A stretch of DNA of 40,209 nt from Anaerolineae bacterium (GTDB lineage: Bacteria; Chloroflexota; Anaerolineae; Promineifilales; Promineifilaceae), in the NCBI GenBank assembly GCA_015486215.1, contig WFSA01000336.1:1-40209 (forward strand), given 5' to 3'. The first letter of the stretch is position 1. Every line of letters starts with the position of its first letter. Under the pieces are notes generated by a model that was not told where the DNA came from, made no database searches, and saw only the letters and a list, made by a program, of their open reading frames with translations. Of the stretch, positions 35,679 through 40,021 are shown piece after piece. The translations under genes and the position numbers were made by a program.

Positions 35679-35806
35679 ATTTTATTCTCCTTTTCAATTA
35701 ATAATGAGCAATGAACGATGAACAAAGTCGTTCACGGCTTACATCTTTCTGCTTTTAATAATTATGTAAATCATACGAATGATCTGTTCAATTTCATTCG
35801 CGTAAC

Positions 35807-35918
35807 GTATTTTCTCAGTATTCTGGGGAGACTTGACAAATTTTCCTAATGGTACTCGTGTAAAATAAAGTGCTGATGAAATTTGTTAAGTCTTGTCCAC
35901 GATTTATTGAGAAGATAC
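35807..35918. repeat. Family A element, copy 12
   Basis: This 112-bp unit is flanked by CGCGTAAC and CGCGCAAC (7 of 8). It lies 129 bp upstream of argG. The segment 35919-36123 holds an AATTGTTAATTGCTAATT-type repeat and a family J hairpin, and no gene. Confidence 0.92.
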
Positions 35919-35984
35919 CGCGCAACGGTAACAATTAACAATTAAGACATGGTTCAAATTAGGGCAAATCGTCTTTACAGATGT

Positions 35985-36656: not shown

Positions 36657-37823
36657 TCAATATACTGACTTAGCCTCTTTGCCCAGCATGACGATGGCTG
36701 GGATACCTGTAAACATCACCACGCCGCCGATGATGAAGGAAGATTGCAGCCCAATTTTGTCAGCTAATACGCCAACGATTGCGATACCCATCGCCCGAAC
36801 AGCGAAGTTGACAGCCAAATACGAGCCGTTGGCAAGAGCGCGGTTCTCGGCGAACTCATCCTGAACGACGGCAAGTAGCACTGGCTGGGGAGAGATGGCC
36901 GTCAATCCCAGACCGATGAGCAAGGGGACGATTGCCCAGTTGGGGGCGTAGAGAAAAGCGAGCATGATGATGGCTGAGAGCGCGGTTAAGACTAATAGAA
37001 CCTTCACCCGTCCCAATTTATCGCTGAGTGTGCCAGCGAATAAAGCACCAACCACGCCTGCACCTTCTAAAATCGTCAACGCTGCCGCGCCCAGCCACAG
37101 ATTCCCTTCGCGCACATCGTTGATATAGAGGGTGAGAAAGGTCGTCAGCGAGGCGAGCATCAGGATGCGCGTGACCATCAGCCATGTAAAGATGGGGAAC
37201 AGGCGACGGGCTTTCGGCCAAAAGGTGGCAGCGGAAACGGCCGTTTTACTCTGCGGCCGCGCGGCAACATTACGTAAGCGCAGGTATAAAATGCCCGATA
37301 CCGCCCAGCCGACGAATGCCATCCGCCATAACCCTTCCAGCCCGAACCAGCTGACCCCAGCCGCAACGGCGATAGGGCCGAGCGTGCGTCCCATCTCTCC
37401 CGCCGCCATAAACATGCTCATCCCCTTGCCCACGCGGTCGCCAGAAACGCGGGCGATCATGGCCGGAGCGGGGGCGTGGAAGGCGGAAATGGAGAAGCCA
37501 ACGGCCGTTAATAACATCGCCAACATCACATAATTGGAGGTTAGGCCGATACAGCTCATCAACGTACCGGTGATGGCGGGTGCAAGGATGATGAAGTAGC
37601 GCAAGCTGATACGGTCAGCGAGATAGCCGATGAACGGGTTCATCAAGCTGGGCAATTGGGTAAAAATTGCCAGCCCGCCCGTGAAGGCGTAATTGGTGGC
37701 AAGCCGATCTTGCAACAGGGGCAGCAACGGCGCAAGAAACGCGCTGTAGGTGTCGTGAGTAAAATGGCCGCCAGCGATGGTGGCAACTTGATCGGTGTGG
37801 AAGGTATTGTCAGGCTTTTTCAT
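36657..37823 (-). CDS. MFS transporter (Fsr/fosmidomycin-resistance-like)
   Basis: The true start is ATG 37823 (MKKPDNTFHTDQVATIAGGH), giving 388 residues. The reading frame is open further to 38453, but that part lies over the YefM-YoeB genes of the other strand and is not protein-like. About twelve membrane helices are present. HFTHDTYSAFLAPLLPLL near 20 is typical of the fosmidomycin-resistance-like group. The cytosolic loop motif GYLADRISLRY lies near 62 and its second-half twin GTLSDKLGRVK near 265. It probably exports a small molecule; the substrate is unknown. Divergent from yefM, sharing the 37824-37929 control region. Confidence 0.88.
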   Translation of the reverse strand: MKKPDNTFHTDQVATIAGGHFTHDTYSAFLAPLLPLLQDRLATNYAFTGGLAIFTQLPSLMNPFIGYLADRISLRYFIILAPAITGTLMSCIGLTSNYVMLAMLLTAVGFSISAFHAPAPAMIARVSGDRVGKGMSMFMAAGEMGRTLGPIAVAAGVSWFGLEGLWRMAFVGWAVSGILYLRLRNVAARPQSKTAVSAATFWPKARRLFPIFTWLMVTRILMLASLTTFLTLYINDVREGNLWLGAAALTILEGAGVVGALFAGTLSDKLGRVKVLLVLTALSAIIMLAFLYAPNWAIVPLLIGLGLTAISPQPVLLAVVQDEFAENRALANGSYLAVNFAVRAMGIAIVGVLADKIGLQSSFIIGGVVMFTGIPAIVMLGKEAKSVY

Positions 37824-37859
37824 AGGGATTGGGGAGCGGGGATTAGGGAACGGAGGGGG

Positions 37860-37926
37860 TTGCATAATCGGCCGATATTGTGCACAATGTAATGGTACAG
37901 GATGCTGTACAACATTTAGCGAGGTG
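37860..37926 (+). promoter_or_regulatory. Promoter and operator palindromes of the yefM-yoeB pair
   Basis: A possible promoter is TTGCAT (37860-37865), 17 nt, CACAAT (37883-37888). Overlapping and following it are the perfect palindrome ATTGTGCACAAT (37877-37888), a half-like GGTACA (37894-37899) and TGTACA (37906-37911), with centres 14 and 12 bp apart. YefM of E. coli is known to bind TGTACA-core palindromes one turn apart, so these are likely autoregulation sites. GAGGTG at 37921 is the ribosome-binding site. Confidence 0.6.
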
Positions 37927-37929
37927 AAT

Positions 37930-38196
37930 ATGGATGCGGTAACGATTTCAGAAGGGCGTAGACGACTGTTTGATTTGCGGCAACAGGTTGTAGATAACCA
38001 TGACCAAGTGATTATGACCCATAAAGCGGGAAATATAGTCTTAATTTCGATGAACGAATGGGAAATATACCGTGAAACGACCCGTTTGATGAACGATAGA
38101 GAAGCGTTGATGGCGTTGGTGCGCTCATTTGAGCAGCATGACGCGGGCAAAGTACGCGGCAAATCGGTTGATAAGATTTTTTCTGATCGGTTATGA
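37930..38196 (+). CDS. YefM/Phd-family antitoxin
   Basis: The 88-residue protein starts MDAVTISEGRRRLFDLRQQV, the usual Phd/YefM DNA-binding N-terminal fold. DNHDQVIMTHKAGNIVLISMNEWE follows, with the family's strand-turn-strand and 'vlis..ew' motif. A C-terminal toxin-binding helix ends KSVDKIFSDRL. Start at ATG 37930 with GAGG upstream; the longer open frame from 37795 is not used. It neutralises the YoeB-type toxin whose ATG overlaps its stop (ATGA), and represses the pair through the palindromes upstream. Confidence 0.92.
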   Translation: MDAVTISEGRRRLFDLRQQVVDNHDQVIMTHKAGNIVLISMNEWEIYRETTRLMNDREALMALVRSFEQHDAGKVRGKSVDKIFSDRL

Positions 38197-38566: not shown

Positions 38567-39745
38567 TTAATTCTCCATTATCAATTTAGTTAAGATGGCA
38601 ACGGCCGTTTCCACATCATCTTTTGTCACCACCAGCGCGGGGGCGAAGCGGAGGGTGTTTTCGCCCGCGCTGATGAGGATGAGACCATTTTGACGGGCGG
38701 CGGAGATGAGGGGGGCAACGGCCGTTTTCATTTCCATCGCCGCCAGCAAGCCAGTGCCGCGCACCTCTACAATTTTCTCTGAGGGAATTGCTTGCAATTG
38801 CGCCCGCAAATACGTCCCATTTTCGCGCACTTGGGCGAGGAAATCGAGCTGGTTGACACGATCAAAGACGACATTAGCGGCGGTGCAGATTAACGCCCCT
38901 GCCGCAAACGTGCTGCCATGATCGCCCGGCTTAATAGTGTCGGCGACCGCTTGCGTCATCAGCGTCGCGCCGATGGGCAAGCCGCCTGCTAACGGTTTCG
39001 CCAATGTCATCATATCAGGCGTGACCCCAGTCTGCTCATGCGCCCAGAGTGTGCCCGTGCGCCCCAGCCCGCATTGCACTTCGTCAAAAATTAGCAGGGC
39101 GTTATGCTTGTCACAAAGGGCACGAAGGGCGTGCAAAAATGCGGGATCGGCCGCATGAACGCCCCCTTCTCCCTGCACTGGCTCGACGATGACGGCGCAA
39201 ACGGTGTCATCAATCGCCGCCGTTGCCGATTCGACATCGTTAAAAGTGGCAAATTCAACATTTGGTACCAGCGGCGCAAATGGAGCGCGGTATTTATCTT
39301 TGTATGTCGTTGATAACGCCCCCATCGTCCGCCCGTGAAAGCCGCCCGTGAAAGTGATGATTTTCGTTTTACCTGCCGCTCCCGCCGCGTAGCTGACTTT
39401 GCGAGCAAATTTCAACGCCGCCTCATTTGCTTCTGCGCCTGAATTGCAAAAATAAACGCGGTCGGCGAAGGAGTTTTCGACCAGCCGTTGCGCTAACTGC
39501 GCTTGCGGCGCGGTGTGATACAGATTGCTGACATGGGTCAGTTTGGCGGCTTGATTAGAAACGGCCGTTACCCACTCCTCATCACTATGCCCCAACGCGG
39601 TGACAGCGATCCCTGACGTAAAATCAAGATACTCCTTGCCCTCGCTGTCAACCAATGTCAACCCTTTCCCATCCGTAAACACGATGGGCGGCCGTATATA
39701 TGTCTGCAATACATATTTTCCTTCAAGTTCAATAATTTCGTTCAT
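38567..39745 (-). CDS. argD: Acetylornithine aminotransferase
   Basis: This PLP enzyme transaminates N-acetylglutamate semialdehyde to acetylornithine (and often succinyl-diaminopimelate in lysine synthesis). The 392 residues are full length. Signatures are YLDFTSGIAVTALGHSDEEW near 41, VYFCNSGAEANEAALKFAR near 97, TGGFHGRTMGAL near 133, VIVEPVQGEGGVH near 185 and DEVQCGLGRTG near 220. The PLP lysine is in MMTLAKPLAGGLPIGA near 246. GGAG lies before the ATG. Upstream on the same transcript are an Arg-rich leader peptide and a terminator/antiterminator pair, so transcription into argD should rise when charged tRNA(Arg) is scarce. Three ACGGCCGT motifs are present. Confidence 0.97.
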   Translation of the reverse strand: MNEIIELEGKYVLQTYIRPPIVFTDGKGLTLVDSEGKEYLDFTSGIAVTALGHSDEEWVTAVSNQAAKLTHVSNLYHTAPQAQLAQRLVENSFADRVYFCNSGAEANEAALKFARKVSYAAGAAGKTKIITFTGGFHGRTMGALSTTYKDKYRAPFAPLVPNVEFATFNDVESATAAIDDTVCAVIVEPVQGEGGVHAADPAFLHALRALCDKHNALLIFDEVQCGLGRTGTLWAHEQTGVTPDMMTLAKPLAGGLPIGATLMTQAVADTIKPGDHGSTFAAGALICTAANVVFDRVNQLDFLAQVRENGTYLRAQLQAIPSEKIVEVRGTGLLAAMEMKTAVAPLISAARQNGLILISAGENTLRFAPALVVTKDDVETAVAILTKLIMEN

Positions 39746-39841: not shown

Positions 39842-39877
39842 AAAAAAAAACCGCCAGCCCCTGTGCGGGTCTGGCGG
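39842..39877 (-). terminator. Attenuator terminator of argD (segments 3:4)
   Basis: On the minus strand CCGCCAGACCC pairs with GGGGCTGGCGG (39851-39877) and is followed by nine T (39842-39850). It lies 97 nt upstream of the argD ATG and 38 nt after the leader peptide stop. Its ascending arm is also the partner of the antiterminator, so the two structures exclude each other. Confidence 0.9.
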
Positions 39878-39974
39878 TCGTTGATTTTTTTCCTTTAATT
39901 ATGCGTAAACGCAATCAACCCCAAAAGCCAGACCTTGTGATCTGGCGACGACGGAAGCGACGGGGGAGTTGATT
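39868..39974 (-). promoter_or_regulatory. Four-segment arginine attenuator (segments 1-3)
   Basis: In transcript order: segment 1 (39974-39939) has AATCAACTCCCC and GCCAGATC. Segment 2 (39934-39913) has GGTCTGGC and GGGGTTGATT. Segment 3 (39886-39868) has AATCAAC and GCCAGACC. Segment 2 pairs with segment 3 by GGTCTGGC/GCCAGACC (8 of 8) plus GTTGATT/AATCAAC (7 of 7). Segment 2 also pairs with segment 1 by the same blocks (GCCAGA/TCTGGC and AATCAAC-CCCC/GGGGTTGATT). So 1:2 or 2:3 can form; 2:3 blocks the terminator. The Arg codons lie in segment 1 and the peptide stop in segment 2, as the classical model requires. Confidence 0.87.
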
Positions 39975-39986
39975 TACAAAATTCAT
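39915..39986 (-). CDS. Arginine leader peptide of argD (23 residues)
   Basis: ATG at 39986 opens MNFVNQLPRRFRRRQ, then ITRSGFWG and stop TGA (39915-39917). Six of 23 residues are Arg (9, 10, 12, 13, 14, 18); five are CGT/CGC codons within 18 nt (39945-39962) and the sixth is AGG. This is far above chance and in exactly the place for sensing charged tRNA(Arg). No Shine-Dalgarno sequence precedes it; the promoter predicts a transcript starting at or next to the ATG, so translation is probably leaderless. The peptide itself likely has no function beyond ribosome stalling. A longer frame from 40106 would run through the promoter and the family G repeat and is rejected. Confidence 0.88.
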   Translation of the reverse strand: MNFVNQLPRRFRRRQITRSGFWG

Positions 39987-39993
39987 GGACGGA

Positions 39994-40021
39994 ATGGTAA
40001 CAAATAATATATGGATGTCAA
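39994..40021 (-). promoter_or_regulatory. Promoter of the argD leader transcript
   Basis: On the minus strand, TTGACA (40021-40016), 16 nt, TACCAT (39999-39994). Seven nucleotides later comes the leader ATG (39986). The -35 matches the sigma-70 consensus at all six positions; the -10 matches at four (TACCAT versus TATAAT). The predicted start of transcription coincides with the leader ATG. Confidence 0.75.

Follow-up and report, generated by a model that had tools for sequence, protein, structure and literature searches.

Arginine synthesis is a textbook case of control by a repressor protein. ArgR/AhrC and the arginine T-boxes have the same task as that proposed for the element described here, which is to turn arginine synthesis off when arginine is plentiful; unlike an attenuator, the former is a protein repressor and the latter an RNA that binds uncharged tRNA. 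In the enterobacterial attenuators of trp and his (also of leu, thr, ilv and pheST), a leader carries a run of regulatory codons, three RNA segments pair alternately, a terminator precedes the first gene, and the leader stop codon is placed so as to free that terminator. In a 2013 survey of cis-regulatory RNAs, the known attenuator specificities are given as His, Leu, Thr, Trp, Ile/Val and Phe, and a gammaproteobacterial origin is suggested (PMC3766115).

Leaderless attenuators have been described in Actinobacteria (Corynebacterium glutamicum ilvL; Streptomyces lividans trpL, leuL and alaL), in which the ATG lies at or next to the transcript start and a three-hairpin logic applies (PMC11857589). 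The start site of C. glutamicum ilvBNC is 1 nt from the leader ATG (PMC11857589), and leaderless leaders are reported for S. lividans, as is alaL, an Ala-rich leader before alaS (PMC8079986). No Arg, Lys or Gln member of this group has been reported, and no conserved RNA structure was found upstream of the arginine and lysine operons of Actinobacteria (PMC1262725). Salmonella speF orf34 likewise combines Arg codons in a short leader with ribosome pausing and RNA refolding (PMC6386406). It differs in having only two Arg codons and in acting through Rho-dependent termination, sequestration of the ribosome-binding site and RNase G decay (PMC6386406); moreover, it lacks an intrinsic terminator and controls polyamine synthesis, not arginine biosynthesis. 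A preliminary description of the present locus had stated that few or no Arg-codon attenuators are characterised, and in the open-access literature that we searched we indeed came across no biosynthetic operon described as being under transcription attenuation at Arg, Lys or Gln codons.

The window (the whole stretch of DNA that was analysed, 40,209 nucleotides) contains, ahead of argD at 39842-40021 on the minus strand, an element with all four features of the enterobacterial attenuators. It is distinguished from them by its Arg codons, its occurrence in Chloroflexota, a probably leaderless start and the lack of any match to an Rfam leader family. We consider it very likely that this element is a ribosome-mediated transcription attenuator sensing charged tRNA(Arg), and we count it as one of a set that extends across Chloroflexota, a reading reached without expression data.

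The leader upstream of argD

All features of the element lie on the minus strand. The putatively regulated gene, argD, encodes acetylornithine aminotransferase (38567-39745; TIGR00707, 492 bits against a cut-off of 410). The promoter consists of a -35 hexamer, TTGACA (40016-40021), which is kept as TTGAC[AG] in nearly all family leaders, and, after a 16-nt spacer, an extended -10 element, TG-N-TACCAT (39994-39999). The ATG at 39986 lies 7 nt past the -10 element, which makes a leaderless transcript likely, with the start site itself being inferred. It opens a frame of 23 residues, MNFVNQLPRRFRRRQITRSGFWG, that ends in a stop codon (39915-39986) and has homologous frames in the family. Five of its six Arg residues fall in codons 9-14, CGT CGC TTC CGT CGT CGC (39945-39962), which show synonymous changes in relatives.

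Segment 1 has an outer part, AATCAACTCCCC (39963-39974), which pairs with 39913-39922 in the minimum free energy (MFE) fold, and an inner part, GCCAGATC (39939-39946), which the folds identify as the 5' arm of a core hairpin. The 3' arm of this hairpin is segment 2, GGTCTGGC (39927-39934), supported by both folds and homologues; its GTCTGG is without variation in the first 19 leaders. The outer part of segment 2, GGGGTTGATT (39913-39922), holds the TGA stop codon of the leader. Segment 3 comprises AATCAAC (39880-39886), the antiterminator partner of GTTGATT in segment 2, and GCCAGACC (39868-39875), which either pairs with GGTCTGGC to form the antiterminator or sits in the 5' arm of the terminator. 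The intrinsic terminator, ACCGCCAGACCC-loop-GGGGCTGGCGGT followed by nine T (39842-39878), has a stem at approximately 39878-39850 and a T tract at 39850-39842, and thus lies between leader and first gene, as this class of attenuator requires. A simple terminator pattern scan did not report the hairpin, which is clear in RNAfold and in homologues; a mismatch that falls outside the pattern is the likely reason. Every sequence detail of the preliminary description (promoter, ATG, frame, Arg codons, stop, segments and terminator) held.

The leader folds with -55.7 kcal/mol, compared to a mean of -38.1 kcal/mol for shuffled sequences (z = -4.6), and none of 200 shuffles did as well. The folds show that the 1:2, 2:3 and terminator pairings are mutually exclusive. 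When everything upstream of segment 2 was masked and the terminator 3' arm was treated as not yet made, 7-8 of the first 8 nt of segment 2 paired with the 5' arm of the terminator in each of the 17 leaders tested. The preliminary description had proposed folding the leader with segment 1 masked. In the complete RNA folded in this way, the terminator still wins at equilibrium in nearly all leaders tested; in the window leader it remains the MFE structure, and 2:3 appears once the terminator 3' arm is omitted. The window antiterminator (-24.1) merely equals the terminator (-23.4). Antitermination at equilibrium with a stalled ribosome was thus not seen unless the terminator 3' arm was left out. 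Since the terminator is favoured at equilibrium despite the masking of segment 1, read-through must be kinetic. From the order of synthesis, we take read-through under starvation to be the outcome of a classical attenuation race, which remains an inference.

Conservation and selection in the family

A DNA search with the window leader gave matches in 17 of 59 relatives. The matching loci contain Arg-rich frames such as MNLVNQTFFRRLRRRQTTGLVICSV and MKNFTTRFVRRIRRRQTNGLVFSVV, followed by argC, and in each the promoter lies a few nt upstream of the ATG, with a hairpin of the form CCAGACC-N3-GGTCTGG and the terminator CCGCCAGACC further on. A covariance model (R1) found the element in 44 of 52 family genomes, at one to four copies each, and in 16 of the 17 family genomes of good quality. 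The peptides follow the pattern RRxRRRQTxGL with CGC/CGT codons. Given that 44 of 52 genomes share the peptide type, the hairpins and the promoter, the element is not a chance occurrence. A lack of Arg-rich frames and paired segments in close relatives had been named in advance as grounds for refutation; both were found, together with covariation.

The emphasis on argD does need correction. Family elements almost always precede argC, the head of the arginine operon, and some (28) precede alaS. No leader was found upstream of argD in relatives, because argD there lies inside or at the end of the arginine operon. Very probably, therefore, the family switch controls the argC operon and the detached argD of the window genome is an exception, with control as such being inferred. 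In the window genome argC is located elsewhere; only 196 nt upstream of the gene, its contig breaks off. No such leader was found at argG, at alaS or in the visible part upstream of argC, and control of the whole arginine pathway by attenuators in this genome is thus unproven. Further weak model matches in the window genome (E 0.01-10) were rejected as plain terminators.

Some other observations were made at these loci. The region before argG (35740-35930, minus strand) and the region before alaS (L304) share a palindromic interspersed repeat of approximately 110 bp, GGTATCTTCTCAAC...TTGACAAATTT...AAATTTGTCAAG...TGAGAAGATACC, which resembles a MITE. Between argD and argG, near an MFS gene and antisense to the long ORF of that gene, lies a frame resembling a YefM/Phd-type antitoxin (37795-38196, plus strand; E 2e-6). 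In one nearly closed genome (G023; L103/L089), codon 7 of the argC leader, upstream of the Arg run, is TAG instead of the CAG (Gln) of its sisters. Either this is a natural variant, for which permanent termination would be predicted, or the sequence is in error; unless it is an error, the leader frame is not indispensable everywhere.

Several lines of evidence indicate selection on the parts of the element. Among single-base codon differences between close pairs, 63% are synonymous in the Arg runs of the family (30% expected) and 47% in the Ala runs (27% expected); the leader frame is therefore under coding selection. The 1:2 pairing of argC/argD leaders (n = 31) is worth -17.2 kcal/mol with its own partner and -12.5 kcal/mol with the partners of other genomes; the corresponding values for alaS leaders (n = 21) are -17.9 and -13.4 kcal/mol, and none of 5000 permutations in either set did as well. 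This result excludes the set outside the family, in which some pairs could not be evaluated. The 2:3 pairing is also better than permuted (p = 0.0012 for argC/argD, p = 0.0004 for alaS). Thus, both pairings are maintained by covariation and are under selection, and the terminator, too, has compensatory pairs in relatives.

In 66 of 68 family leaders, 6-10 nt separate the end of a promoter from the start codon, and a Shine-Dalgarno-like stretch is present in only one of the 68, compared to nine of 36 outside the family. Family leaders are therefore likely to be leaderless and several outside the family are not, a conclusion drawn without start-site data. The leader stop ends 23-39 nt past the start of the core hairpin in 80 of 101 leaders, and inside segment 2 in the window leader, a placement that fits a finishing ribosome covering segment 2. 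The leader Arg codons are CGC, CGT or CGA in 213 of 228 cases; for five genes of the window the figure is 48 of 75 (p = 4e-9). These three are the codons that tRNA(Arg)ICG decodes in bacteria generally. Several species are pooled in this comparison, and the hairpin may account for part of the bias. A pause consensus for RNA polymerase downstream of the core hairpin was weighed as a further part and dropped; by eye, it fits only some members.

Bacterial arginine synthesis had been noted at the outset to be controlled usually by ArgR/AhrC. No ArgR (PF01316) was found in the genome of the window or in any of the 52 family genomes. In the class, four of 396 genomes exceeded the cut-off, all from one genus and all with partial matches; control genomes were positive as expected. 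No Rfam family, the Trp, His, Leu and Thr leaders included, matches the window element or seven related loci, and there is no T-box match at the window locus.

We also sampled argC by a protein model in 90 genomes of the class, so that the loci were not chosen by the RNA model. Outside the family, 12 of the 22 ArgC loci tested carry, within 350 nt, an Arg frame that stops at a core-like hairpin; the count is zero for six lysY paralogues and zero for 2,800 dinucleotide shuffles. Among the remaining ten ArgC loci, several possess Arg-rich leaders whose hairpin diverges, so the CCRGAC/GTCTGG motif is not strictly required. The element is present in, among other named records, CFX8, ACE_CHL11, ACE_NR_CHLO5, Ardenticatena sp. 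S012_161 and UBA3001. Arg-rich leaders also precede argC in the Ardenticatena and Thermoflexus MAG loci L036 and L021. There was no match at the non-Chloroflexota argD loci among L041-L080, for which 3 kb per locus were searched and argC may lie outside.

Elements with other codon runs

Two of the first homologue matches have the same scaffold with an Ala run (MKTRTHNTTSAAAAAAAQTPSLVCCVA) before alaS, the position occupied by all 28 Ala elements of the family search; alaL of S. lividans is a precedent for these (PMC8079986). A broader model (R2), run over 396 class and 400 phylum genomes, brought in further members. Some are Arg leaders of argC and argG; in others, Lys runs stand ahead of homocitrate synthase, lysX and homoaconitase, or Gln runs ahead of a LysE-type transporter. 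The codon run was scored without regard to the gene, as the residue that occurs most often in the ten codons leading up to the core hairpin. This residue matches the pathway of the downstream gene in 94 of 111 matches, while the best of 20,000 permutations reached 51. The Gln/transporter pairing was assigned after the data had been seen; without it, agreement is 85 of 101. Some genomes are close relatives, so the matches are not all independent. Most disagreements involve Pro-Arg leaders (PRRPRPP), in which Pro ties or wins, or another frame.

Individual members of this set deserve mention. Lys-codon attenuators associated with the LysW/aminoadipate pathway of lysine synthesis occur at L170, L191, L196, L199, L202, L203, L223, L225, L257, L264, L268 and L270. 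Gln-codon runs (e.g. ALQQQQGNQPDMRSG) precede a LysE/RhtB-type transporter at L250, L251, L253, L258, L259, L261 and L262, and again at L192, L206, L248, L249 and L255. It would be odd for an exporter to be turned on by scarce Gln-tRNA, and the substrate or direction of the transporter may differ from what the family name implies. A single weak match (L221 in G371; E 1.6e-4) has an Asp/Asn-rich leader, MKQVLIVDGANLNTNDGPNRGFRLVLFAV, before an aspS-like gene. L198 (G225) and L214 (G412) each have two model matches a few hundred bases apart, which may be tandem attenuators; the first of the two leaders at L214 is Lys-rich. At L159 (G010), a frame that by eye resembles a PIN domain follows the Ala leader where alaS usually starts, possibly a toxin-antitoxin insertion between attenuator and alaS. 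Weak class and phylum matches without a codon run or a sensible gene (L204, L205, L216, L217, L219, L224, L254, L256, L265-L267, L271 and L273) were set aside as chance matches or plain terminators.

A bolder reading is that Chloroflexota possess one interchangeable attenuator chassis that goes back to a common ancestor, acquires a new address when its codon run is exchanged and serves in place of ArgR across the class. The chassis would consist of the core hairpin, CCRGAC-loop-GTCTGG, and a terminator whose 5' arm repeats the motif. Its addresses would be Arg for argC, argG and argD, Lys for homocitrate synthase, lysX and homoaconitase, Ala for alaS, Gln for the LysE-type transporter, and perhaps Asp/Asn for aspS. 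We lean towards this reading by a small margin only. That all members share an ancestor is plausible, yet it has not been demonstrated, since the model that finds distant members selects for the shared core.

Proposed mechanism and rival explanations

We propose that transcription starts at or beside the leader ATG and that a ribosome loads on the leaderless 5' end. With plentiful Arg-tRNA, the ribosome would pass codons 9-14, reach the stop codon at the end of segment 2 and cover that segment; segment 3 and its own 3' partner would then form the terminator, and transcription would end before argD. With scarce Arg-tRNA, the ribosome would stall on the CGT/CGC run and cover segment 1. Segment 2 would then pair with segment 3 as RNA polymerase makes the latter, the terminator would be blocked and argD would be transcribed. 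If no ribosome had loaded, 1:2 would form, and so would the terminator. The preliminary description had likewise applied the trp/his logic to arginine, and there is comparative evidence for each predicted part. Its proposal that stalling in segment 1 lets 2:3 form and argD be read is supported by folds and covariation as far as the pairing goes; stalling itself, like the response to arginine, is inferred.

Could the peptide rather than the codons be sensed? The fungal arginine attenuator peptide and enterobacterial SpeFL are models for an arrest-peptide mechanism, in which the ribosome would stall at one site with free arginine or a polyamine bound in its exit tunnel, and the stall would set the RNA fold. 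The family peptide is recognisably conserved, RRxRRRQTxGL, as this model would have it. However, it is the hairpin DNA (CAG ACC..GGT CTG) that fixes those C-terminal residues which are conserved, the N-termini and the number and spacing of Arg residues vary freely, and outside the family the peptides have little in common beyond their Arg codons. We found no invariant effector-binding residues at fixed spacing, only the Arg run and the hairpin-encoded residues being constant. The same scaffold also carries Ala, Lys or Gln runs, which would not be expected of an Arg-binding peptide, and we consider this explanation very unlikely.

The same low likelihood attaches to the two explanations in which the frame has no sensing role. 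If the element were a ligand- or protein-binding RNA switch (an arginine riboswitch, a T-box or the target of an RNA-binding regulator that recognises the CCRGAC/GTCTGG hairpin), the frame would be incidental. The core hairpin sequence is indeed conserved across the Arg, Ala, Lys and Gln elements, seemingly beyond the needs of pairing; this conservation is partly due to selection by the search model, and a segment that pairs with two partners is expected to be conserved anyway. Against such a switch, no Rfam family matches, T-box included, it is the codon run and not a ligand pocket that changes with the target gene, and the excess of synonymous changes indicates a translated frame. Alternatively, the locus could be an ordinary gene for a small Arg-rich protein with its own terminator, argD being merely downstream, and a short frame followed by a strong terminator does look like one. 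But both pairings, 1:2 and 2:3, show covariation, the stop of the frame falls within segment 2, and the residue run tracks the amino acid of the downstream gene in the great majority of matches (94/111), in a peptide that is otherwise poorly conserved. Attenuation by a ribosome reading Arg codons thus remains our preferred explanation.

The mechanism is already known from trp and his, and Actinobacteria provide precedents both for leaderless attenuators and for Ala leaders of alaS. Against the literature searched, the novelty lies in the specificities for Arg, Lys and Gln, in the phylum and in the set of elements with exchanged codon runs. For annotation, the codon run names the amino acid that is sensed, even for transporters of unknown substrate. 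Because the family leaders are probably leaderless, the race between ribosome and polymerase could be tested in them without a Shine-Dalgarno site. The codon swap between otherwise matching elements constitutes a natural experiment on the evolution of attenuator specificity, and this view predicts that a handful of codon changes would re-address the switch. A large and mostly uncultured phylum seems to control arginine synthesis by means of the ribosome, without ArgR.
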